This document shows positions 9,560-34,021 of a stretch of DNA of 64,000 bases, piece by piece. Within the stretch, counting starts at the first letter, position 1, and every line of letters starts with the position of its first letter. Below the pieces are notes generated by a model. That model saw nothing but the letters and a program-made list of their open reading frames with translations. It was not told the origin of the DNA and ran no database searches. The DNA is from Novipirellula artificiosorum. GTDB taxonomy: Bacteria > Planctomycetota > Planctomycetia > Pirellulales > Pirellulaceae. Location: contig NZ_SJPV01000002.1 of assembly GCF_007860135.1 (NCBI RefSeq), forward strand, positions 124,001-188,000. The letters run 5' to 3'. The translations under genes were made by a program, and so were the position numbers.

Positions 9560-10402
9560 TCAATCGTTGTCCATTTCTGCCAGTTCCCGTTCGTACAACC
9601 GGCGAATTTCATCCAGGTCAACCTGGACCGTCGGCAATTGTGGATCCATCTCTTGCAATGTTTCGTGAACGATACTGGCCACTGCCGCGTCGCGGTACCA
9701 CTTTTTATCTGCAGGAATGATGAACCATGGCGCATCCTTGGTGCTGCATTTCTTGAACACGTCCTCGTACGCTTCAAGATACTTGGGCCACCGGTCGCGC
9801 GCTTCGTAATCGCCTACGTTCAATTTCCAATGCTTCTCAGGATAGTCCAATCGTTCTTTGAATCGTTCGAGTTGTTCCTTTGGGCTGATGTGCAAGTAGA
9901 ATTTTAGAATGCGAGTTCCACGTTCAGCTAGCAAGCTTTCGAATTGATTGATGATCTCGTAGCGTTTGCTCCAGACACGCTTGGGTACCAAGTCTTCAAC
10001 ACGTACGACCAACACATCCTCGTAATGAGAGCGGTTGAAAATCGAGATTTGACCGGCCGCAGGAGTGCATTGGTGGACGCGCCACAAAAAGTCATGAGCC
10101 TGTTCGATGGGCGTCGGTACTTTGAACGGGTAACTCCGAACACCCTGTGGGTTCATTCGCCCCAGGGTCTTGCGAATGAGTCCATCCTTGCCGGCCGCAT
10201 CCGGCGCCTGCAACACGATCAACAGGGACTGCTTGCCTTCAACGTACAAGCGATACTGCAACGCACGCAGCTTCTGGATCGTTTCTTCGACGTACTCTCT
10301 CGCTTCTTCTTTTCCTTCAAACGGACCGTCCGGCTCGGTTCTGACGGACTTCAAATTGACCGATTCCCCAGGCTTGACGATGTGCTTTTTGACAAAATCC
10401 AC
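9560..10402 (-). CDS. ppk2: polyphosphate kinase 2 (PPK2 family)
   Basis: Transfers phosphate between inorganic polyphosphate and nucleotides. The 280-aa single domain has the Walker A segment APDAAGKDG (residues 66-74), the catalytic Walker B-like IFNRSHYEDVL near 121-131, and a lid region KRYEIINQFE followed by KFYLHISPKEQLERFKERL. A single domain of this size is found in class I and class III enzymes; I cannot separate ADP from AMP preference by eye. A TATAAT box lies about 40 nt upstream of the start. The next gene upstream on the same strand encodes an adenylate-kinase-like protein, so both act on the adenylate pool. Confidence 0.9.
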   Translation of the reverse strand: MDFVKKHIVKPGESVNLKSVRTEPDGPFEGKEEAREYVEETIQKLRALQYRLYVEGKQSLLIVLQAPDAAGKDGLIRKTLGRMNPQGVRSYPFKVPTPIEQAHDFLWRVHQCTPAAGQISIFNRSHYEDVLVVRVEDLVPKRVWSKRYEIINQFESLLAERGTRILKFYLHISPKEQLERFKERLDYPEKHWKLNVGDYEARDRWPKYLEAYEDVFKKCSTKDAPWFIIPADKKWYRDAAVASIVHETLQEMDPQLPTVQVDLDEIRRLYERELAEMDND

Positions 10403-10448
10403 GGGATCTGACCTTGTAGTAAGAAGAGAGGAAATGTGAAGCCGTCTG

Positions 10449-10454
10449 ATTATA
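10449..10454 (-). promoter_or_regulatory. candidate -10 box of ppk2
   Basis: On the minus strand the hexamer reads TATAAT, a perfect sigma-70 -10 box, about 45 bp before the ppk2 ATG. No good TTGACA lies 16-18 bp upstream, so support is partial. Confidence 0.35.
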
Positions 10455-10553
10455 CCGGACCCGAGTTTTGGAGGTGGCTGCCGCGCTCCCTCGACCTGGC
10501 TTTCTCAAACGGCCCTTTCTCAAGCGACGATACGATTGTCGAAAATGCCCTCG

Positions 10554-10700
10554 ATGGACATTGCCGCTTTGTGGGCGATTTGCTGTGATTTGCCGAATCA
10601 ATCTCGGACAGAGCGGCTAGCGCCTTGCCGCCGACTCTGCCGGTACGAAATACCGGCGGCTAGCGTCTTGCCGCTCATCTAACGTCGCTGTTCCAGTTAG
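10554..10700. repeat. MITE-like dispersed repeat, copy 1
   Basis: About 147 bp that match, in opposite orientation, the element at 62918-63063. Shared blocks include TTTGTGGGCGATTT, GCCGAATCAATCTCGGAC, GCGGCTAGCG(C/T)CTTGCCGC and the end CCAGTTAG. The centre is palindromic (GCGGCTAGCG facing CTTGCCGC). The right end lies over the stop codon of the adenylate-kinase-like gene: its TAA (10697-10699) belongs to the terminal CTAACTGG of the repeat. There is no open frame; it fills the spacer between ppk2 and that gene. Confidence 0.7.
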
Positions 10701-11953
10701 CCGCGACGAATTTCCGAGCCTCGAAAGCGGATGGCGATTCGATAGACCTTCTTTTGCCGACATTGCACTTCGCCCGTCTGCAGGTCAAAACGGATCGGGA
10801 CTTCATCTCGTTGTAGGTCAACACTGGCATGAAAGCCACGTTCCGAAAAGACATCGATCAGCATCTTTAGCGCCAACGGATTCTCCAGAACCGCATCTTC
10901 GGTGTTGATGCTGCAGTAGCCAGAAATCGCATGGCGAATCACGATCGGCATCATTTTTTGCTCGATCAGCTCAATCACCTGGTGGAACAGCTCGCCTTCC
11001 TTGATCTCGTAGCTGTCGAGCCGGCTGACGAGATCTCGGCGAGCGTGCAGTAGAATATCGCTCGCCAGGGAAATCCGCGATACGCTGTGGAAGGTTCGCG
11101 GATCCAGTTCCAGCGAACTTTGGTATTCCAATTCTTGGAAGATGTTATCCTTCACCACATCCATCGGCGCTTGCGCGTTGATAAAGTGGTAGTGGAAGAT
11201 TTGCTTGAGCGACACCAATGCGTCGTAGGTCTGCTCTTTGAAGACGCGGTACCGGTTCCGAGCCAAGTCTTCGTTGAAATCGGTTGGGCGTTCTTCCCAT
11301 AGCGTCCCAATGCCAGTGCGTTTGACTTCTTCGTTGTGAGCGATCACTTGGCGGCCTCGCTTCAATTGGCGAGCGATACTCTCGGCTTCATCAACGAACA
11401 GGACCATGATGTGAAAGCAGGGTTGTTTGAAATGAACTTGCTCAGGGGTCCCTGCGAATTCTCGCCGCAGCTTTTTCATTTCATCGTTGAGCATCTTCAA
11501 ACATTCGACTTGGACCTTCGTTCGTGGGAACCCGTCGAGAATCGCACCGGTTTGGTATTCGGGTTTCAGCAATTCGTGAAGTAGGATGTTCACGACTTCG
11601 GTATCACCGACCATGGACCCACGGGCCTTAAGCTTTTCCGCCTCAGGGCTACTAAGCAATTGGCTCACGACGATAGGTTCCGACGCGATGTCGCGAACTT
11701 TGCGGATGTAGTCCGTGTTGGTCCCCTTTCCTGCCCCCGGTGCACCACCGAGTAGGATCAACTCTTTTGGGAAATGGAGTTTTTCTCGCCCATATTCGTC
11801 CTCCAGTCGCTTCCAGACCGAGTTGAAAATCAACTGAGCATCTTTGACTTCAAGATCCGTTTGGGGGCGTTTTTTGTCGTGTAGTTCAGTGGCAGACGAA
11901 TTCACAGCAGATTCCGCGGCAAAAAGGTGAGTGGGGTTAAGCAAATCACCCAC
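10697..11953 (-). CDS. long adenylate-kinase-like nucleoside monophosphate kinase
   Basis: P-loop nucleoside monophosphate kinase. A helical leader (residues 1-62) precedes the P-loop GAPGAGKGT (70-78). The NMP-binding signature ILDGFPRT sits at 138-145 and the lid is short, lacking the zinc-finger cysteines: KRGRQVIAHNEEVKRTGIGTL, then a DFNEDLARNRYRVF segment that supplies the usual Asp and Arg. At 418 aa it is nearly twice a normal adenylate kinase; about 150 residues after the kinase (from ELEYQSSLELDP) form an extra helical and beta domain I do not recognise. Probably phosphorylates AMP or a related nucleotide. Its stop codon is contributed by the end of a dispersed repeat. Neighbour of ppk2 on the same strand. 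Confidence 0.85.
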   Translation of the reverse strand: MGDLLNPTHLFAAESAVNSSATELHDKKRPQTDLEVKDAQLIFNSVWKRLEDEYGREKLHFPKELILLGGAPGAGKGTNTDYIRKVRDIASEPIVVSQLLSSPEAEKLKARGSMVGDTEVVNILLHELLKPEYQTGAILDGFPRTKVQVECLKMLNDEMKKLRREFAGTPEQVHFKQPCFHIMVLFVDEAESIARQLKRGRQVIAHNEEVKRTGIGTLWEERPTDFNEDLARNRYRVFKEQTYDALVSLKQIFHYHFINAQAPMDVVKDNIFQELEYQSSLELDPRTFHSVSRISLASDILLHARRDLVSRLDSYEIKEGELFHQVIELIEQKMMPIVIRHAISGYCSINTEDAVLENPLALKMLIDVFSERGFHASVDLQRDEVPIRFDLQTGEVQCRQKKVYRIAIRFRGSEIRRG

Positions 11954-12089
11954 CAGGATACCGTTTCCGCGATAAGATTCACGGGCCCCTCTACAAAGTT
12001 TGTTGTTTCGCCGGTTGTTGGGTCACCGTAGCGTGGCAGAGTGTCGCATTGAACCGAGCTGGAAGCGACGAACGCCGAGAGGGAGGCAT

Positions 12090-12132
12090 AAAAAAAGGCG
12101 AGGCCGATCCCGAAAGACCGACCACGCCTCGC
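12090..12132 (-). terminator. Rho-independent terminator (minus strand)
   Basis: Read on the minus strand, a perfect 7-bp stem GCGAGGC/GCCTCGC (12126-12132 with 12098-12104) encloses a partly paired loop and is followed by seven T residues (12090-12096). No annotated gene longer than 30 codons lies just upstream on this strand, so it implies a short transcript such as the small open frame at 12145-12237. Confidence 0.6.
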
Positions 12133-12144
12133 ACGGGGGGACGC

Positions 12145-12237
12145 TTAATATCTTGGTGAGTATGTCGCAGCTGTTTTGCGTCCCTCGTACACCTCTAAGA
12201 TTACTTCGGCTCTGCCGGTTTGGTACTCCTTGATCAA
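12145..12237 (-). CDS. possible 30-residue small protein
   Basis: A TTG-initiated frame of 30 codons ending in TAA, just before a minus-strand terminator. The predicted peptide contains AEVILEVYEGRKTAATYSPRY, which looks like a real protein C-terminus (balanced composition, amphipathic beta-strand). There is no strong ribosome site. An ATG frame that begins at 12286 (MSVTTSLAVFVKVAKKIDQ) is in the neighbouring frame and would join this one by a +1 shift near CAAGGAG, so a longer 46-residue product with a frameshift is an alternative. Function unknown; support is the sequence composition and the terminator. Confidence 0.35.
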   Translation of the reverse strand: MIKEYQTGRAEVILEVYEGRKTAATYSPRY

Positions 12238-12251
12238 TCTTTTTGGCTACT

Positions 12252-12280
12252 TTGACAAAAACGGCTAGCGAAGTTGTTAC
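12252..12280 (+). promoter_or_regulatory. candidate sigma-70 promoter
   Basis: A perfect TTGACA (12252-12257) is followed after 17 bp by TGTTAC, a weak -10 match. It points toward the FG-GAP/sialidase gene about 180 bp downstream. Only the -35 box is convincing. Confidence 0.3.
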
Positions 12281-12456
12281 ACTCATGTCGGTCGTAGTGA
12301 TCGTGAGATCGAGTCTTCCTGGGCCACGTCGATGGTGCAGGTTTGCCTGGGTGCGTCAAACGCTGCGAGTTGCAATCGAAGTCTAACGAACGACCGGACA
12401 ATCGATGTTGTCGTGTAGGCTGTCCGCCTGCAAACTAGCCCGGTGGTGGTTTGAAC

Positions 12457-15400
12457 ATGATGAATGCGGGTGTACTGATGAGAACAACTTTTTTTCTACT
12501 TGGCTTGGTAGTATGGGGCAGTGTTCATGCCGAAGAATTGCAGTGGAAGCTGCAACCGCTCCAATACAATCATCCTGGCTTGGAAGTGGATCTTGGTGTC
12601 GGCTTATGGGCGTTCCCCTTGCCGATCGACTATGACAACGATGGGGATATGGACTTGCTCGTCGGTTGCCCCGATAAGCCCTCCAACGGAACCTACTTCT
12701 TTGAGAATCCGTCCCAGGATGCAAGCGTAGCGATGCCGATCTTTAAGCCGGGGGTTCGCATCGGTAACGGCTACCAGTACATGATGCTCAGCGTCGTTGG
12801 TGAGGAATCGGTCGTTCTGACACCTGGGAAGGAGTTCCGACGAGATCCTGCCAGCGGAGAATTTGATTTCAGCAAGCCGGTCAAGATCGATGCGATCACG
12901 AACCCCAATAGCCAGTCCAAAGGACGCGTACGCGGCAACATGTGGCGATACGTTGACTATGACGGTGATGGCGACCACGACCTTATTGTGGGCTGTGGTG
13001 ATTGGTCGGATCTCGGCTGGGATCATGCCTACGACAACCGTGGTGTTTGGCGCAATGGTCCGCTTCACGGATACGTTTATCTGATCGCGAACGAAGGCAC
13101 CGATGAAAAGCCTGTCTACGAGAAAACTCCGCAACGGTTAGCGGCGGGAGGTGGTGAGATTGACGTCTATGGATGGCCATGCCCCAATCTGGCGGACTTC
13201 GACGGTGATGGTGACCTTGATCTGCTCTGTGGTGAGTTTCTCGACGGCTTTACCTATTTCCAGAACACCGGATCACGACAGCAGCCCAGTTATGCTGCGG
13301 GACAGAAATTGACCAACTCCGACGGTGAACCGTTGGCGATGCATCTGCAGATGATCACGCCGACGGCGATTGATTGGGATTGCGACGGGGATTTGGATTT
13401 GATTGTCGGTGATGAAGACGGTCGCGTCGCGCTAGTCAACAACACGGGCCAATGGAACGATCGCACTCCTGTGTTCGACGCACCTCGCTACTTCCGGCAG
13501 CAGGCGGACACGCTGAAGTTCGGAGCACTGGCCACCCCTTTCGTCTACGACTGGGACGCGGACGGTGACGAGGACATCCTTTGTGGCAACACCGCCGGAT
13601 CGATTGGATGGTTCGAGAATTTGGGCGAAGGCGAAAAGGGTTTGCCGAAATGGAATGCCCCCGTGCTGCTGCAGTCCAAGACGGAGCAGGGGCAGCTTGC
13701 ACCGTTCCGAGTCATGGCCGGCCCCGCCGGTTCGATCCAGGGACCGTGTGAGGCAAAGTGGGGCTACACGACGTTGTCGGTTGCGGATTGGGACGACGAT
13801 GGGGATGGTGATATTGTGTACAACTCGATTCTCGGACGGGTCGGGCTGTTGCAAAACGACTCGGGGGTATTACAGGAAGCCAAGTTCGACACAGGGATCC
13901 GCGAATTGCCGCCCAAATGGTATTGGTGGCAAACGCCATCGGAGGTGACCTTAACGCAGTGGCGTACAACGCCCTTGGCCATTGACTTTGATGTCGACCA
14001 AACGCTTGATTTGGTGATGCTCGACCAGCAAGGCTATTTGACACTTCGTCGCGGCGGTGGGGTTGCGGAACGCATCTTTGTCGATGAAGACAACCGGCCC
14101 TTGCAACTCAACGCGGGCAGTTGCGGGCGATCGGGACGGGTCAAATTGGCCGTCGTCGATTGGGATGGTGATTCCCGGCTGGATGTCTTGGTCAATTCCG
14201 AAAATGCAACTTGGTACCGCAATTGTGAAGACCGCGATGGCAACATCGTGATGAAGAAGATCGGGAACTTGGCGCGGCGAAATGTGGCAGGCCACACGTC
14301 AAGCCCGGCTGTTGCCGACTTCAGCGGTGATGGCCAACCCGATTTGCTCGTTGGGAGCGAGAATGGGCGGATCTACTACATTGCACATCAGGATTGTGTT
14401 CCGTATCCGGCCGAGCAAACGCAGGCACGCCCACCTCATGCACAGCAGACCATCAAATTCCCAGGATTGATCCGTGAAGAATTTGTTTTCACGAAGGCAC
14501 CGTTCGAGCAGTGTCATGCATCGACGATTTGTGAAACCACTCGTGGTTTTGTCGCAGCTTGGTTTGGTGGAACCAAAGAAGGGAAAGAAGACGTCTGCAT
14601 CTGGACCAGCTACCACGATGGGACAGGTTGGACAAGTCCAACCAAAGTGGCGGATGGAGTCCAGCATCGCGATTTGCGATACCCGTGTTGGAACCCCGTC
14701 TTGTATCAGCCGCCTGGTGATGCGCCAACGTTGTTGTTCTTCAAAGTTGGCCCAAAACCGGATGCGTGGTGGGGCGAGATGATGGTCAGCTACGATCGAG
14801 GGCGAACGTTCGTCGGACGCAAGCGGTTGCCAGAGCATATTGATGGGCCGGTTCGATGCAAACCGATGTTGCTCGATGATGGCCACACGTTGTTGTGTGG
14901 ATCGTCTACGGAGTTCGATGGTTGGCGCGTCCATTTCGAGACGGTTACCCTGCTTGATGGTGTGCCCAGCGGTACGTGGGGCCGAATCGGACCGATTAAC
15001 AACGCAACGGAGTACAATGCGATTCAACCAACCTTCCTTACCCATCCTGATGGCCGGATTCAAATCCTCTGTCGAACAAAGGAAGGAGTGATCGCTACGA
15101 GTGAATCGTCGGACCAGGGGCAATCGTGGTCCGAGATGCAAGCGACCGAGCTGCCCAACCCCAATGCAGGCATCGAAACGGTAACGCTCGACGACGGTCG
15201 CCATCTGCTCCTCTACAATCCCCTTGACTCAGGTGCAAGTGGTTGGGGAAAACGAGGTATCTTAAGTTTGGCCATTTCCGACGATGGCCAAACTTGGAGC
15301 CCCGTGGGTGAACTCGAACGCGAAGAAAAGTCCGAGTTCAGCTATCCGGCAATGATTCAGGCTGCGGATGGGAGCGTTCATATTACGTACACCTGGAAAC

Positions 15401-15471
15401 GGAATCGAATCAAGCACGTGGTGATCGATCCGAAGGCAATTTCTGTGGATGGAACGATACGGGGGAATTGA
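12457..15471 (+). CDS. secreted FG-GAP (VCBS) repeat protein fused to a sialidase-like propeller
   Basis: About 1000 aa with two halves. After the signal peptide (MRTTFFLLGLVVWGSVHAEE), residues to about 650 hold repeated FG-GAP/VCBS blades with calcium-binding loops such as DYDNDGDMDLL, DYDGDGDHDLI, DFDGDGDLDLL, DWDCDGDLDLI and DWDDDGDGDIV. From about 670 the protein changes to a BNR/sialidase-like domain (ICETTRGFVAAWFGGTKEGKEDV, then the Asp-box-like SYDRGRTF and SDDGQTWSP). Start codons are possible at 12451 (TTG), 12457, 12460 and 12478 (ATG); 12478 puts the signal peptide first. Probably an exported glycan-binding hydrolase. Sialidase activity is not certain, since planctomycete BNR proteins have varied substrates. 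Confidence 0.82.
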   Translation: MMNAGVLMRTTFFLLGLVVWGSVHAEELQWKLQPLQYNHPGLEVDLGVGLWAFPLPIDYDNDGDMDLLVGCPDKPSNGTYFFENPSQDASVAMPIFKPGVRIGNGYQYMMLSVVGEESVVLTPGKEFRRDPASGEFDFSKPVKIDAITNPNSQSKGRVRGNMWRYVDYDGDGDHDLIVGCGDWSDLGWDHAYDNRGVWRNGPLHGYVYLIANEGTDEKPVYEKTPQRLAAGGGEIDVYGWPCPNLADFDGDGDLDLLCGEFLDGFTYFQNTGSRQQPSYAAGQKLTNSDGEPLAMHLQMITPTAIDWDCDGDLDLIVGDEDGRVALVNNTGQWNDRTPVFDAPRYFRQQADTLKFGALATPFVYDWDADGDEDILCGNTAGSIGWFENLGEGEKGLPKWNAPVLLQSKTEQGQLAPFRVMAGPAGSIQGPCEAKWGYTTLSVADWDDDGDGDIVYNSILGRVGLLQNDSGVLQEAKFDTGIRELPPKWYWWQTPSEVTLTQWRTTPLAIDFDVDQTLDLVMLDQQGYLTLRRGGGVAERIFVDEDNRPLQLNAGSCGRSGRVKLAVVDWDGDSRLDVLVNSENATWYRNCEDRDGNIVMKKIGNLARRNVAGHTSSPAVADFSGDGQPDLLVGSENGRIYYIAHQDCVPYPAEQTQARPPHAQQTIKFPGLIREEFVFTKAPFEQCHASTICETTRGFVAAWFGGTKEGKEDVCIWTSYHDGTGWTSPTKVADGVQHRDLRYPCWNPVLYQPPGDAPTLLFFKVGPKPDAWWGEMMVSYDRGRTFVGRKRLPEHIDGPVRCKPMLLDDGHTLLCGSSTEFDGWRVHFETVTLLDGVPSGTWGRIGPINNATEYNAIQPTFLTHPDGRIQILCRTKEGVIATSESSDQGQSWSEMQATELPNPNAGIETVTLDDGRHLLLYNPLDSGASGWGKRGILSLAISDDGQTWSPVGELEREEKSEFSYPAMIQAADGSVHITYTWKRNRIKHVVIDPKAISVDGTIRGN

Positions 15472-15515
15472 CGCGGGGGAATTGATCGGCTCGAGGGGGA
15501 GCCAGCTTTATCGGG

Positions 15516-16478
15516 TCAGTGCGAATGGCCCTGATGGTCGTCGGGGGTGTGATCCGAGTCTGCTTCGAAGCCATGGTCATGGACGTGATCTTCGTCCGGT
15601 GCGTGTTCCGCACTGTGCTGCGGGTGCGGTCCATGGCTGTGACCCGGCAAGTTCTCGATCACAACCGCAAGTCCTACCCCCAAAAGCAACGCGGCGGTCA
15701 GTTTACCTCGGTCGTGGTCGTGAAAAGCGACCTCCGGCAAGAGGTCTGCGAGTGCGATGCCGAGGAAGAATCCGCCTGAGATTGCCAAGCCCCATCCTAG
15801 GATCGCCTGCTCTCCGGCAAACTGGGTCGCGCCGACATAGAAGCACGCGGCGCCGATCGGGCAAGCCAGCGAGAACGAGAAGTTCGCAATGTTTTGAGCG
15901 GTGGGTGACCAGTTTTGTTTGTTCATGACCGAAGTGATGGCAAACGCATCGAGTGGTTTATGCAAGGCGACGGCCAAGAAGGTTCCAAGGCCCGCTAACC
16001 CAAGCCAAGCGCCATGTTGGGCATCCGCCAACACGCTGCTGGCAAGTGCCACACCGTCGACCAACGTATGGAGGGCAAGTCCAAAAAACAGCCCTGCCCA
16101 ACTGAGGCCTTTGGAATCATGATGATGGTGATCATGATCGTGTGATCCATCGGGATGGTTGTGGGAGCAACCTTCCGACTCGGCGTCGTCTTCCACCGGC
16201 ACACCATGATCATGGGTATGAAACAAGCGGATCAACAAGAACATCACGATCAAGCCGATCAAGCCGCCGATCCCCATCTTTGAGCCAGATTGCAGAATCT
16301 CACCTCCATGCGGTAGCAGATGCAGCATCGCGATGCCCAGCATCAAGCCACCGACGCCGCTCATCAACAATTGGGTCCGCAAATGGGTCATTCTCAAGAT
16401 TGTCGACAACCGTCCTCCGGCGACGGACGCGATGATAATCAGCAAACAATAGACGACGAGTAGGATTCCGGGTGACAT
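15516..16478 (-). CDS. ZIP-family divalent metal transporter, His-rich
   Basis: Inner-membrane importer, probably of zinc. About eight hydrophobic segments; metal-site motifs are HTLVDGVAL (TM4) and HKPLDAFAI (TM5), as in ZIP proteins. A His/Asp-rich cytoplasmic loop (DGSHDHDHHHHDSK, near residues 110-125) follows TM3, and a second His-rich tail (HGPHPQHSAEH onwards, ending HQGHSH) closes the protein. 320 aa is normal for the GufA/ZupT-like group. Divergent from a Fur-family gene across a 334-bp spacer holding palindromic operator candidates, which suggests repression by that regulator when metal is replete. Confidence 0.9.
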   Translation of the reverse strand: MSPGILLVVYCLLIIIASVAGGRLSTILRMTHLRTQLLMSGVGGLMLGIAMLHLLPHGGEILQSGSKMGIGGLIGLIVMFLLIRLFHTHDHGVPVEDDAESEGCSHNHPDGSHDHDHHHHDSKGLSWAGLFFGLALHTLVDGVALASSVLADAQHGAWLGLAGLGTFLAVALHKPLDAFAITSVMNKQNWSPTAQNIANFSFSLACPIGAACFYVGATQFAGEQAILGWGLAISGGFFLGIALADLLPEVAFHDHDRGKLTAALLLGVGLAVVIENLPGHSHGPHPQHSAEHAPDEDHVHDHGFEADSDHTPDDHQGHSH

Positions 16479-21031: not shown

Positions 21032-21162
21032 CCATCATCTGCATCTTACGGATGATTTGCCCCTCTGAGCATCACATCGAGCACCTCGGATCGAGTAGAC
21101 TGCGTAAGCCGAGTTGGCGAAGGCGTTGAATCTCTATCACCTGATCGTTGGAACCGTTTTTT

Positions 21163-23691
21163 ATGTTTCGTGTTGCGCTGCGTCCTCTTGCGGTATGGGT
21201 ATCGTTTTGCGGTGCCGCGGTGCTATTCGGTTCCACGGCGCTCGCTCAGTCTGATGATGCGGATGACCCAACGGCGTCGCCCAAGGTAACGCTTTCGATC
21301 GCTCCCGGGGGGACACAACGCAACGTTGCGGGGCGTTGGGCGACGGCATCGGTCGGCGGGTTTAATCGGTCGGACGTTGACGCCACCGAGACCGCCGTGG
21401 TGATGCTTGGCGATGATGGTCAACAGCAATATGCCCGCCGGATTTGGATCCCGCCCCATGCGACTCGTCGATCATGGTTGCCGATCAAGATCCCCCGCGG
21501 CTTGCCGTTGGGTCAGGTTCAATTAGATATGTCGTCGATTCACGTGAAGAATGGAGATCGAGGCGAGTCATACCAGTCCAACGTTGTCGGAATGCCGGTC
21601 AGTGAGCGTTCGTTGCTGTTGTCATGGGAGCCGTCGCGAACGGCGGTCATCCTCGATTCTTCCGATTTGCGAGAAGCCGATCCTGAGCATCGGGGTTTGT
21701 TGATCGACACGATCTATACCGCGCGAGATTGGCAGGGAAGCTCAGGGCAAGACTTGGGGTTGGTTCATTTGAATGAACGATTTCTTCCGCCGGGCGCGAG
21801 GACCTTCGATCCGATCGACCAGATCGTGATTGCGAACGACCGACTGCTTGAGGACAGCGTGGGAGTCGCGCGCCTCCAATCGTGGCTTCATGGTGGTGGG
21901 CGAGTTTGGATCATGATCGATCAAGTCGATGCCGAATCGGTATCGGCACTGCTGGGGACGGCGCCGTGTTACAGTGTTGTGGACCGTGTCGAGTTAAGCG
22001 ACTTCGAGGTCCGTTTGCCTGACGTTTATGGTTTGTCGGGAAATCTTGGCAATGAAGCTTGGTCTTCGGAAACTCCTGTCGAGCTATTGCGAGTTTTCGC
22101 CGAATCCGACGACGTTGCTTGTACGATTGATGGCTGGCCAGCTGCCTTTTGGAAAAGGTTTGGTCGCGGTGAAGTGTTGTTCACGGCGCTTGGGGCGCGC
22201 GGATGGGTTAAGGAAGGGAAATCGACAGGCGCCATGCAGGCGATCTCCTCTCGCTTTTTTGTTCGACGTCTGGAATCGCCCACCTATTCGAAGCTTCTGA
22301 GCCCGTTGTTGGAGGACCAGATTGGATACAAGATCCCCGGACGCAACGTGGTTGCTGTGGTGTTGGGGGGGCATCTTGCTGTGGTTGCGCTGATCGGTTT
22401 TTGGCTTTGGCGTCGTCAATCGTCTCAGCACCTCGCTTGGATCATTCCTTGTGCTGCAATCGTCGCCGGCGGTGCCTTGTTCGCGATCGGAAAACAGCAC
22501 ACGTCGTCGGTTGCTGCCACGATCGCGACCGGACAGATTGCTCAGGTTGTCCCGGAAAGTTCTCAAGTCCAAGTCCATGCGGTTTCCGCACTCTACAGCG
22601 ACAACACGCGATCGTTGGGGATCACCTCATCGGCGACGACCACGGCGGGTTTCGTGCATCGAGAATCGTCGGGTGAACTGAGCCGCATCGTTTGGGACGA
22701 TTCCGGTGCCGCTCAGTGGCTCGACCTTACCCAGCCTCCGGGCATTGTACGACATGTCGAAAGCGACTCCATCATTACGGTCCAAGAACCGTGGTCATTT
22801 CGGGGCCGGTTCAACAGCAAGGGGTTTCAGGGCAGCATCGAAGGGTTGGCTGACCATCGTTGTCAAGATGCGGTGATTGTGGCAGCGGGCTCCCCGTCGT
22901 TGGCCGTGCATCTTGATGACCCATCGAAGGTGACGACGAGCGAACCAGGTGACACCTTGCCGCCGAACCAATTCCTAAGCGACAGCATGCTGTCCGACAC
23001 ACAGCAGGTGCGTCAGCAGTTGATGCGTCAATTGATGGGAGCGGGGTCGCCTTTGGTGGGACGAGATCCGACACTCGTTGTGTGGACCGATCCCGTCGAG
23101 TCAGGATTGGCGATTGACGGGGACTACGCTCGCACCGGGTCGGCGATGGCACTCTTGCCGGTCTGTATCGAACGGACAGCCGTGGGAGAGCGTTTCAGCG
23201 TTCCTGCCACGTTCGTTCGGTTAGAGCCATGGAATCGGTCCAGCGGAGTCTCTTCGTTTTTTGACGCCGAACGAGGCCAATGGCCGAGTCAAATCAATCG
23301 GCCGTTGGATATCGCCATCACCTGCATCCCTCCGTCCGAACTGCAGCCGTGCCAACTTGAGCGTGCGATCGTTACCATCAAGGTCAATGCGCCTTCGCGG
23401 AATTTGGAAGTGAGGGGTCGCGTTGGCGAACGATTTGTTTCTCTTGAGTCCATCAAGAACCCGAGTGGCGTGTTGCGGTTCGAAATTACCGATCGCGAGG
23501 CACTTCGGTTGGACGCGGATGGGGGCATGCCGTTGATGATCTCCGTTCAGCAGACCGATCAAGAACGCGCAGCGATGGATGCGTTGGAAGATGCCGGCAA
23601 CCGCGGTGACACCTACAGACCCGATAGCGTCAACCAAGATACTTGGCAGATTGATTATGTTCACGTCAGCCTGGAAGGCATTCGGAGATAA
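21163..23691 (+). CDS. large membrane-anchored protein of ABC-2 export operon, function unknown
   Basis: Not recognised. Start at ATG 21163 (an in-frame TTG at 21148 is possible) gives a signal peptide ending in STALAQS. Residues up to about 385 look extracytoplasmic, with a GATase- or vWA-like fold (HGGGRVWIMIDQVD; FGRGEVLFTALGARGW). Two adjacent membrane segments follow near residues 395-415 (VVAVVLGGHLAVVALIGFWLW) and 428-445 (IPCAAIVAGGALFAI). A second beta-rich soluble part ends with a KVNAPSRNLEVRG segment. First gene of a four-gene operon: the ABC ATPase starts 2 bp after its stop. The layout recalls GldG-like partners of ABC-2 transporters, but I have no direct homology. Confidence 0.7.
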   Translation: MFRVALRPLAVWVSFCGAAVLFGSTALAQSDDADDPTASPKVTLSIAPGGTQRNVAGRWATASVGGFNRSDVDATETAVVMLGDDGQQQYARRIWIPPHATRRSWLPIKIPRGLPLGQVQLDMSSIHVKNGDRGESYQSNVVGMPVSERSLLLSWEPSRTAVILDSSDLREADPEHRGLLIDTIYTARDWQGSSGQDLGLVHLNERFLPPGARTFDPIDQIVIANDRLLEDSVGVARLQSWLHGGGRVWIMIDQVDAESVSALLGTAPCYSVVDRVELSDFEVRLPDVYGLSGNLGNEAWSSETPVELLRVFAESDDVACTIDGWPAAFWKRFGRGEVLFTALGARGWVKEGKSTGAMQAISSRFFVRRLESPTYSKLLSPLLEDQIGYKIPGRNVVAVVLGGHLAVVALIGFWLWRRQSSQHLAWIIPCAAIVAGGALFAIGKQHTSSVAATIATGQIAQVVPESSQVQVHAVSALYSDNTRSLGITSSATTTAGFVHRESSGELSRIVWDDSGAAQWLDLTQPPGIVRHVESDSIITVQEPWSFRGRFNSKGFQGSIEGLADHRCQDAVIVAAGSPSLAVHLDDPSKVTTSEPGDTLPPNQFLSDSMLSDTQQVRQQLMRQLMGAGSPLVGRDPTLVVWTDPVESGLAIDGDYARTGSAMALLPVCIERTAVGERFSVPATFVRLEPWNRSSGVSSFFDAERGQWPSQINRPLDIAITCIPPSELQPCQLERAIVTIKVNAPSRNLEVRGRVGERFVSLESIKNPSGVLRFEITDREALRLDADGGMPLMISVQQTDQERAAMDALEDAGNRGDTYRPDSVNQDTWQIDYVHVSLEGIRR

Positions 23692-28382: not shown

Positions 28383-29954
28383 CTACAACGGGAAGTCGTC
28401 CTCCGCAGCGGTGTCCGCATACAAAGGCATGTGCCGGTAATAGACTTCCAAGATCATCGTTGCAAAGGCAGTACTCGCCAAGCGCCCTCCTTCACGCGGT
28501 CCACGATGCGAATGGCTGTTGGGGAAATGCCAACTGCCTTTCGCACCTGGGGCTTGCGACTGTGCGTTGACCAGCCAATCGCGAAGTTCGACGTTGAATT
28601 TATCCCATTCTAATCCGCCATAGTGACGCAGCACCTGAGCGGCGTAATAGTCGTAGTAAATATCGTCTTTCTTGACGCCCATCCGTGTCAGTTCCTTCAC
28701 TCCGCCGATGATACCTGGATGGTCCTTGTCCCAACCGGTGTACATTCGGCACAGCAGTCCCATCGCGGTGCATCCTTCGTGGCTTTTGGTTGGCTTGGTA
28801 TCGTAGCCGTACTTGGCTCCGTCTTCCGATTGGACTTTGTTCAAGAACAAGATTGATCCTTGCACGGCGGTTGGCGGAATGACCAAGTGCCCCATATGCC
28901 CGCTCTTAAGCGCCATCACTTGCCAACCGGTCACTGACGTATCACCTCCATTGGGTGCTTTCGGTTGATACCGCCATCCACCGTCGCGACCTTGCGCGTA
29001 GACGATGTAATTCAACGCGGCTTGTGCCGGCCCGGCAAGCGCGGTGTCACCGGTCATCGCATAAGCTTCACTCAGCGTAATGGCTGCCAGCCCGTGCGAG
29101 TACATGTTGCCACCGCTCTCGCGCAGATCCAACACTGGCATGCCTTGTTGCTTTCCTGATTTGCCGCTGGTTGCTAGAAACAACAACCCCGCTCGGATGC
29201 GGTCTTTGTATTCGCCGTACATGTGCGTTTGCCCCGCTCCCAAGAACGGCAACAGCGCCAACGAAGTCGCCGCGATGTGGGCATCGGCTCGGTCGGATTC
29301 GCCGGGATCCCCGCATCGATTGCGGCAAACTCGGTTATGTTGGAACGTCCAGGCGCCGTTGGGCATTTGGTGAAGCGACAACCATTTCAACGCGTCGCCA
29401 ACGGCTGATTCGCTGCTGGCGTTGCCACCGTAATCGCGGAGCAGTTTCTTTTTCATCTCGTTGCTGCGACTACTCATCGGCGCCGCTGCGGATCCTGCTA
29501 ACGTTTGCAGCGACGCGGCGACAGGTGCCATTTCCGCAGCCAGATCATTCATATTGATCGTTACCGCCTCGATTTGAAGCGGAGCGACTGCTTCAGGTTC
29601 GACCATGTCCATTTGTTCGGCCACCTCAACCGTTTGGTCGACCACTTCTTCCATCTCGGCCAAGTCGCCTGGATCCATCGGCTCGATGGCGAACTCTTCC
29701 ATTTCCGGCCCCTCTTCGCCGGTACCGCGGGCTGACAAGACATTGACCACTTTGGCTGGTGTGCCGACGGTAATCAGCCCCAAAACGAGCAAGATGATCA
29801 CGTGCACAAACATGCTGATCATCCACGCCGGCATCACTCGGAACAGCAAGAATCGCTGTTGTGGGGCATAGTCGTCATCGGATGGGTGACTTTCGACCCG
29901 CGCATCTTCGTCAGCGACGAGAGTCGCAAGGATTGGTTCGGTAACGGTTGCCAT
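28383..29954 (-). CDS. TonB-like N-terminus fused to prenyltransferase/squalene-oxidase-repeat domain
   Basis: Start at ATG 29954 (MATVTEPILATLV), 523 aa. A single transmembrane helix at residues 42-62 contains Ser47-x3-His51 (SMFVH), the motif that TonB-type proteins use to contact ExbD. Next is an acidic, Met/Glu/Pro-rich spacer (about 75-150), then an alpha/alpha toroid of the prenyltransferase/squalene-oxidase type from about 190 to 500, with repeats such as GDALKWLSLHQMPNGAW, ALNYIVYAQGRDGGWRYQ and VTGWQVMALKSG. No DxDD cyclase motif is seen, so catalysis is doubtful. Probably a periplasmic binding or scaffold protein. Confidence 0.78.
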   Translation of the reverse strand: MATVTEPILATLVADEDARVESHPSDDDYAPQQRFLLFRVMPAWMISMFVHVIILLVLGLITVGTPAKVVNVLSARGTGEEGPEMEEFAIEPMDPGDLAEMEEVVDQTVEVAEQMDMVEPEAVAPLQIEAVTINMNDLAAEMAPVAASLQTLAGSAAAPMSSRSNEMKKKLLRDYGGNASSESAVGDALKWLSLHQMPNGAWTFQHNRVCRNRCGDPGESDRADAHIAATSLALLPFLGAGQTHMYGEYKDRIRAGLLFLATSGKSGKQQGMPVLDLRESGGNMYSHGLAAITLSEAYAMTGDTALAGPAQAALNYIVYAQGRDGGWRYQPKAPNGGDTSVTGWQVMALKSGHMGHLVIPPTAVQGSILFLNKVQSEDGAKYGYDTKPTKSHEGCTAMGLLCRMYTGWDKDHPGIIGGVKELTRMGVKKDDIYYDYYAAQVLRHYGGLEWDKFNVELRDWLVNAQSQAPGAKGSWHFPNSHSHRGPREGGRLASTAFATMILEVYYRHMPLYADTAAEDDFPL

Positions 29955-33175: not shown

Positions 33176-34021
33176 ATGATCAAGCTAACGACACCTGAGC
33201 AAGCGCGTCGCTTCGTACTCGAGAGGCGGTTCGCCGGACACACCGTTGGTTTGGTACCGACGATGGGCGCCCTGCATGAAGGACATCGATCGCTGGTCCG
33301 TCATGCTTGCGTCCAATGCGATCATACGATTGCGACGATTTTTGTGAACCCGACTCAATTCGGTCCCAATGAAGATCTCGACAAGTACCCTCGGTTGTTG
33401 GAGCAAGATTGCCAACAGCTCGAGGCCGAGGGAACCACGGCGGTATTCTTGCCAAGCAGTGACGTGATCTATCCGCCAGGATTTAGCACTTATGTCGAGC
33501 CGCCGAAGGTCGCGGCGCCACTTGAAGGCGTTTGTCGGCCAGGACATTTTCGTGGTGTTGCGACCGTGGTCATGAAACTGTTTCAGATCCTGCCAGCGAC
33601 CCATGCCTTTTTTGGCCGCAAAGATTATCAGCAATGGAAAGTCATCGAAGCGATGGTGCGCGATCTGAACGTGGGGATTGAGATCGCTTGCTGCGATACG
33701 GTTCGCGAGTCGGATGGATTGGCATTGAGCAGCCGTAACCGTTACCTCAGTGAAGAGCAACGCTCGCGCTCGCTTCGGTTGTCCGTCGCGCTTCGTCGTG
33801 CTCAACAGCTTGCCGATTCAGGGGTGCGCGATGTCTCACGAATCGAAGCCGAGATGAGGCAAATCTTATTGAGCGAGGGTGGCGTGGACGCAATCGATTA
33901 TGCAAGAGTCGTTGACGCAGAAAGCCTCGCGACTTTGGAGCATCTCGATCGACCCGGCGTCGCGTTGATCGCTGCCTTTGTGGGGCAGACACGATTGATC
34001 GACAACGTTTCGTTGAGCTAA
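33176..34021 (+). CDS. panC: pantothenate synthetase
   Basis: Joins pantoate and beta-alanine using ATP to make pantothenate. The nucleotidyl-transferase HxGH motif is in VPTMGALHEGHRSL, the KMSKS-like residues are in SSRNRYLS, and FVNPTQFGPNED and FFGRKDYQQ are family signatures. 281 aa, full length. It begins 2 bp after the BFN gene and is followed 15 bp later by the sugar importer ATPase, so it may be cotranscribed with both. Confidence 0.95.
   Translation: MIKLTTPEQARRFVLERRFAGHTVGLVPTMGALHEGHRSLVRHACVQCDHTIATIFVNPTQFGPNEDLDKYPRLLEQDCQQLEAEGTTAVFLPSSDVIYPPGFSTYVEPPKVAAPLEGVCRPGHFRGVATVVMKLFQILPATHAFFGRKDYQQWKVIEAMVRDLNVGIEIACCDTVRESDGLALSSRNRYLSEEQRSRSLRLSVALRRAQQLADSGVRDVSRIEAEMRQILLSEGGVDAIDYARVVDAESLATLEHLDRPGVALIAAFVGQTRLIDNVSLS

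Follow-up and report, generated by a model that had tools for sequence, protein, structure and literature searches.

A toroid protein of Novipirellula artificiosorum with a TonB-like docking helix: a putative proton-driven transducer of the planctomycete envelope

The anchored toroid protein and its surroundings

The window, a stretch of 64,000 nucleotides from the Novipirellula artificiosorum genome, contains on its reverse strand the gene of an anchored toroid protein, P0001, with a translation of 523 aa (28383..29954). P0001 is built from a transmembrane helix with Ser-x3-His, an acidic linker and an alpha/alpha toroid. An AlphaFold model was built with a 70-row alignment and reached a mean pLDDT of 79.9. 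Its single confident N-terminal helix, residues 43-62 (29769..29828, reverse strand), was assigned as the transmembrane helix from the model together with hydropathy. A sequence scan found SxxxH once in P0001, as Ser47-Met-Phe-Val-His51 (29802..29816, reverse strand), inside the sole hydrophobic segment detected by hydropathy (L017); the first-pass annotation, which had placed this pair in the only membrane helix, was correct on that point. By analogy, the pair would dock onto a motor, and Leu58 and Thr62 extend it to an SHLS-like pattern.

Residues 65-163 (29466..29762, reverse strand) form a linker that is net acidic by composition and mostly disordered, modelled largely at low confidence and including a low-confidence helix at 136-155. 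Conserved hydrophobic positions in this acidic sequence mark residues 85-91 (29682..29702, reverse strand) as a weak candidate for a motor box. The alpha/alpha toroid head, residues 165-507 (28434..29462, reverse strand), was recognized from the AlphaFold model, from structure matches and from remote sequence similarity; it is modelled confidently, is mainly helical and has pLDDT blocks mostly of 94-98. The alpha/alpha toroid fold has until now been known mainly from enzymes. The top Foldseek matches of the head were the MstE terpene cyclase and squalene-hopene cyclases. After realignment a squalene-hopene cyclase ranked first (2sqc_A, Z 27.5, rmsd 3.1, 295 aligned), and GH76 and epimerase (alpha/alpha)6 barrels were placed lower among the structure matches. 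Neither TonB_C nor TonB_2 was found in P0001 by a Pfam scan, and the initial claim that a squalene-oxidase-like toroid stands in place of the TonB C-terminal domain is upheld. Cyclase similarity in Pfam and NCBIfam remained below cut-off (TIGR01787 scored 20.9 bits, cut-off 322.7). When the P0001 toroid sequence was read by eye, no DxDD acid motif was seen, and any DxDD in the toroid part occurs in only 2 of 155 homologues. The head is thus unlikely to be a class II terpene cyclase; because DxDD is missing, binding by the head is likelier than cyclase chemistry, with other enzyme activities still possible.

No exbBD genes were found beside P0001, there being no ExbD or ExbB match on contig C2, and TPR, tolQ-like and tolR-like neighbours are likewise absent at this locus. 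Among 80 loci of P0001 homologues, in which the closest named relatives are Planctomycetes bacterium CA13 (74%), Rubripirellula and Rhodopirellula, ExbD occurs in only three, approximately 9 kb downstream of the toroid (each locus extends at most 10 kb to either side, and many are shorter). L089, L092 and L098 each contain two tandem ExbD-like frames, encoded on the strand of a P0001-type toroid and about 9 kb downstream from it. Since P0001 and its close homologues are located outside exbBD clusters, the motor of P0001 is inferred from family and motif.

The neighbours of P0001 in the window are LarC-like, PIG-L, BFN, HEAT and ABC genes. Using tblastn at 1e-20 against the 80 loci, LarC, PIG-L and BFN were found to recur solely in the near-relative locus L074, a 281-aa gene at 33176 recurred in 6/80, and the HEAT and ABC genes recurred in none. 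Because the neighbours scarcely recur, the neighbourhood yields no function for P0001. At L074 (CA13; 9857-15819), MoxR-type AAA, DUF58 and BatA genes come after the P0001 orthologue in the same orientation, unlike in the window, where P0001 and the adjacent downstream gene, which encodes HEAT repeats, are convergent. In 21 of the 80 loci (L091, L097, L103 and L105, for example), one toroid gene is immediately succeeded by another, which suggests that some toroids act as pairs. Elsewhere in the window there is an 847-aa open frame (21148-23691), with an ABC transporter pair and a HEAT-repeat gene downstream of it; neither Pfam (E<=0.05) nor NCBIfam (E<=0.01) gave a match for this frame.

Conservation of the Ser/His pair, the linker and the motor contact

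The 80 homologue loci were fetched by two toroid patterns and not by the helix, and two of them are cut at a contig end. By title, one locus (L133, a 3.3-kb MAG contig) derives from another group and two are named just 'bacterium'; no dedicated search was made beyond Planctomycetota. When aligned to P0001, the homologues with a complete N-terminus have Ser at position 47 and His at position 51 without exception (78/78 each), and the finding that would have refuted the proposed anchor, a pair not conserved in orthologues, did not materialize. The helix neighbours of the pair vary (M/T/L/F/A at position 48 and V/I/A/L at position 52). Of the 78, 59 have L and 17 have M at position 58, and only 36 have T or S at position 62; Pro42 and Trp44 ahead of the Ser are also well conserved (71/77 and 70/77, respectively). 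SxxxH was present in all 29 further homologues obtained from a whole-protein ranking (L045-L073), which are partly the same genes as in the 80-locus set. All seven anchored toroids found in the genome, namely P0001 and six full-length paralogues, bear the motif in the membrane helix. In the 70-row alignment A2, Ser47 and His51 are the sole invariant residues before residue 185, and many residues of the head are invariant; because its rows were chosen by hand and none is without the motif, conservation rests on the unselected 78-row set.

In order to obtain a background, the remaining proteins with a single anchor in the stretches that contain the toroids were scored by matched criteria. The 180 toroid ORFs comprised 172 distinct ones, of which nine without a membrane-segment call were set aside. 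SxxxH was found in 155 of the remaining 163, against 8 of the 286 background proteins, one of the eight being a vWA-type protein on C9; with a looser window the figures are 156/163 and 18/286. The matched 8/286 replaces an earlier background of 5/223, one of which was P0001 itself, that had used criteria unlike those for the toroids. Membrane segments were called by a plain hydropathy window, and these counts are therefore approximate. Seven anchored toroids are without the pair in the loose window (L035, L039, L093, L119, L143, L175 and L178). By eye, five of these look secreted or like weak members, and the true exceptions are L143, with Gln in place of the His, and L178, which directly follows ExbD and has no SxxxH. 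The strict window additionally excludes L073, whose pair is positioned just beyond the called segment. As judged from these sequence counts, the Ser/His pair in anchored toroids is more than chance.

In the 155 homologues measured, the helix and the head's first QW-type motif are about 97 or more residues apart. The spacer had been described at the outset as acidic, which holds for P0001 and for the linkers of 150 of these 155 homologues, and the acidity had been listed as a caution against the TonB comparison, which does not hold; with 150/155 linkers net acidic, this property is typical of the toroid family. Linker positions 85, 88 and 90 are conserved as hydrophobic in the hand-picked 70 rows and fall in a stretch that is disordered in the AlphaFold model. 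A hydrophobic-acidic pattern tried for the D-box matched 69/155 homologues and gave no clear D-box, and P0001 residues 85-91 fit the published pattern poorly, as far as it is given in the available part of PMC10907165. A similar stretch is present in the vWA-type protein on C9. The positive-inside signal is modest: on average the N side of the helix carries more positive charge than the C side (96 of 152 cases, with 19 equal), a bias that favours a periplasmic head only weakly.

The Ser/His face had originally been thought to contact ExbD, which requires correction: the solved structures show ExbB instead, according to the accessible portion of PMC12215075. That portion describes cryo-EM evidence that TonB Ser16/His20 contact ExbB Ser34/Trp38 on TM1, with a link to Pro190 of TM3, and that TolA/TolQ rely on the same contact network as TonB/ExbB. 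The contact to ExbD is made by the D-box, which follows the TonB helix (PMC10907165, seen in excerpt). Ten ExbB-like proteins were compared, two of them from this genome; seven lie inside toroid clusters and the other three come from an ExbB-ExbD-ExbD group that stands apart from them by some kb. ExbB Ser34 and Pro190 and the pore residues Thr148 and Thr181 are kept in 10/10, and the second contact residue, Trp38, is replaced by V, F or L in 10/10.

Motors, paralogues and other heads

The genome (9.2 Mb, 66 contigs) was searched for motor components and contains eight ExbD (PF02472) and eight MotA_ExbB (PF01618) matches, and the ExbB/ExbD homologues whose absence would have told against the proposed anchor are present. 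One of two OmpA matches adjoins a MotA/ExbB-type match on C16, and that PF01618 match may be MotA. TonB_C and TonB_2 had no match in the genome, and one TonB-dependent-receptor Plug match scored 28.7 bits, above cut-off. Among 294 sampled planctomycete genomes, ExbD is found in 286 and a toroid protein encoded on C8 is matched in 218 (E<=1e-20), four of the 218 being without an ExbD match. Presence and absence of ExbD and toroid over the 294 genomes was dropped as evidence; ExbD is nearly universal, so its co-occurrence with the toroid says nothing alone. For the class to which the window belongs, 21 genomes were sampled; each has both ExbD and a toroid match, and 18 of the 21, this genome included, have no TonB_C match. 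TonB_C is present in 201/294 genomes of the phylum, and toroids therefore also coexist with TonB. Within the order, 98 genomes have between two and nine matches each to the P0001 family.

Two of the six anchored full-length paralogues terminate same-strand clusters in the order TPR, ExbB, ExbD and toroid, one on C1 (L032: 15210..7678) and one on C8 (L033: 13031..7694), and the family assignments of the genes in both were confirmed. The same cluster is complete at five further loci (L195, L196, L211, L212 and L213). Twenty stretches had been picked for likely ExbD neighbours and do not provide a rate. In the 30 loci scoring best for the C8 paralogue, ExbD is encoded no more than 600 bases upstream of the toroid in 20, or in 21 when a longer L211 stretch is used; as these loci were ranked by their score for one paralogue, 21/30 cannot be taken as the frequency in the family at large. 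SxxxH is found in 20 of the 21 ExbD-adjacent toroids, with L178 as the exception. ExbD-toroid pairs without an adjoining ExbB occur in many loci. Both operon ExbD proteins of the genome score best with the TolR model, under its cut-off.

Other gene arrangements were seen in these loci. The ExbD-adjacent toroid proteins of L178 (886-3279, the one without SxxxH) and L211 (5165-9406) also have a PD40 beta-propeller. TolB also contains PD40 repeats (PMC12204202, in the part available), and a Tol-like link is therefore possible for toroid-PD40 proteins. L202 (2351-10172) encodes ExbB-ExbD-ExbD, then a penicillin-binding-protein transpeptidase and then an ExbD-toroid pair, and L206 and L207 have a similar gene order, with the transpeptidase recognized by Pfam in L202 only; this order possibly represents a link to cell-wall synthesis. 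Three toroids of the genome itself, at L034 (8027-9139), L035 (8264-9304) and L036 (7978-9024), are without the SxxxH anchor and have signal-like N-termini by eye; judged in the same way, they would represent this head in free form.

A profile built from the anchor and the beginning of the linker (A3), in which the C9 vWA-type row was already included and from which the two operon paralogues had been left out, matched eight places in the genome, consisting of five toroid proteins and three vWA-type proteins. The two operon paralogues were not recovered by this profile. The vWA-type protein on C5 matched PF00092 at 26.5 bits (cut-off 23.8) and that on C1 matched PF13768 at 57.4 bits (cut-off 27); the C9 protein scored 24.6 bits with PF13768, below the cut-off of 27. 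All three have S-x3-H-x6-L, and the C9 protein can be aligned to P0001 across anchor and linker. Williams-Jones et al. 2025 proposed that SHLS-bearing vWA proteins, whose genes adjoin TPR and tolQ/tolR-like ones, form a new transducer class, with Planctomycetes among the bacteria concerned (PMC12204202, partial text). The toroid appears to be a second kind of head mounted on the same plug. The terms 'prenyltransferase' and 'squalene' are absent from the main text of PMC12204202, and no description of a toroid-headed SxxxH transducer turned up among the papers listed in a literature search confined to open-licence PMC papers. PMC2754498 mentions induced exbB/exbD genes and, in the portion available, no squalene, prenyltransferase or TonB.

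Interpretation and comparison with known systems

We interpret P0001 as a TonB/TolA-like force transducer with a toroid head, with a probability of roughly 0.75; docking, energisation, periplasmic location and partner are all inferred by analogy. With Ser47 and His51 as contacts, the helix would dock against TM1 at the outside of an ExbB-type pentamer, and the periplasmic dimer of ExbD would perhaps capture a stretch of the flexible acidic linker just past the membrane. Protons passing through ExbBD would then pull or turn the linker such that the periplasmic toroid moves, and the toroid may bind an unidentified envelope partner, possibly a TPR protein like those encoded with some of the paralogues. 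The first-pass interpretation of a TonB-type anchor on a toroid is supported, because the Ser/His pair is conserved, ExbB and ExbD are present and same-motif paralogues directly follow ExbD. It is amended with respect to the contact, the linker and the coupling to proton-motive force, which is inferred in the absence of binding or energisation data. Counting against the transducer reading are the distance of P0001 and its close homologues from exbBD genes, the replaced Trp38 of ExbB, the T or S at position 62 in no more than 36/78 homologues, the lack of a clear D-box, the ExbD-toroid pairs without an adjoining ExbB, the two anchored toroids that lack the pair and the modest charge bias.

The anchor may alternatively dock on ExbBD while the toroid remains passive or regulatory, localising a binding domain or gating the motor without transmitting force. 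The same sequence evidence would be expected from such a protein, some loci pair the toroid with ExbD only, and no TonB-type C-terminal domain was detected in the head. We nevertheless judge this unlikely, given a spacer of at least about 97 residues in 155 homologues, like that of known long-linker transducers, and the occurrence of the same anchor on vWA heads that have already been proposed as transducers.

It is also conceivable, if very improbable, that the Ser and His are kept for helix pairing, for metal or lipid contact or for membrane insertion, with no contact to ExbBD. That the spacing equals that of TonB and TolA, that the pair is rare among other anchors (8/286), that ExbD-adjacent paralogues share it and that the ExbB partner Ser is kept in 10/10 all speak against this explanation; it draws on the distance of P0001 from exbBD genes and on the conservation of Pro42 and Trp44, which places the helix under other constraints too. 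A membrane-tethered terpene-cyclase-like or glycan-acting enzyme with an incidental anchor would account for the match of the fold to squalene-hopene cyclase, GH76 and epimerase enzymes and for the many invariant head residues of the 70-row alignment, but is scarcely credible with DxDD missing from P0001 and nearly all homologues and cyclase scores under cut-off, and would leave the Ser/His pair and the ExbD neighbours unexplained.

Beyond the force-transducer reading of P0001 itself, we put forward, as a conjecture that could go either way, that Planctomycetota possess a modular system in which an SxxxH anchor and linker bear swappable heads (toroid, vWA and, in some cases, toroid with PD40) that share several ExbBD motors; many Planctomycetia would lack TonB, and the toroid would be a force-bearing, ligand-binding head. 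If true, ExbBD in TonB-less Planctomycetia powers an unrecognised set of envelope processes. ExbD is found in 286/294 genomes, yet 18/21 of the class are without TonB_C, and the toroid family is a testable answer to what these motors drive. Because a TonB-like docking helix bears a ring-shaped head, our results suggest that a proton-driven motor works unfamiliar envelope parts in these bacteria. The toroid fold would be added to TonB, TolA and vWA as a head of motor-driven transducers.

P0001 resembles squalene-hopene cyclase in fold (Z 27.5 to 2sqc_A) and in remote sequence similarity, and differs from it by the added membrane anchor and linker, the absence of DxDD and scores under the family cut-offs. 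It is similar to TonB in its single N-terminal helix, Ser-x3-His (TonB 16/20), Leu at +11, Ser/Thr at +15, linker and C-terminal head, and in the ExbB/ExbD motors of its genome. In contrast to TonB, its linker is acidic and not Pro/Lys-rich, its head is a toroid without TonB_C or TonB_2, and its genome has just one Plug match. TolA has SxxxH at the same spacing (18/22), and the paralogue clusters with TPR, ExbB/TolQ-like and ExbD/TolR-like genes are also reminiscent of it, whereas no TolA-type C-terminal domain was detected by Pfam in the toroid proteins scanned. The vWA transducers, as described in the available part of PMC12204202, share an SHLS helix, a disordered linker and a globular head that is not of TonB type, and in the PVC group they have TPR and tolQ/tolR-like neighbours, which is true of the toroid paralogues but not of P0001. 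They differ in that the P0001 head is an alpha/alpha toroid without vWA and that the toroid clusters of its genome have one ExbD and not a pair. The vWA-headed transducers are the precedent for the proposed toroid-headed transducer.
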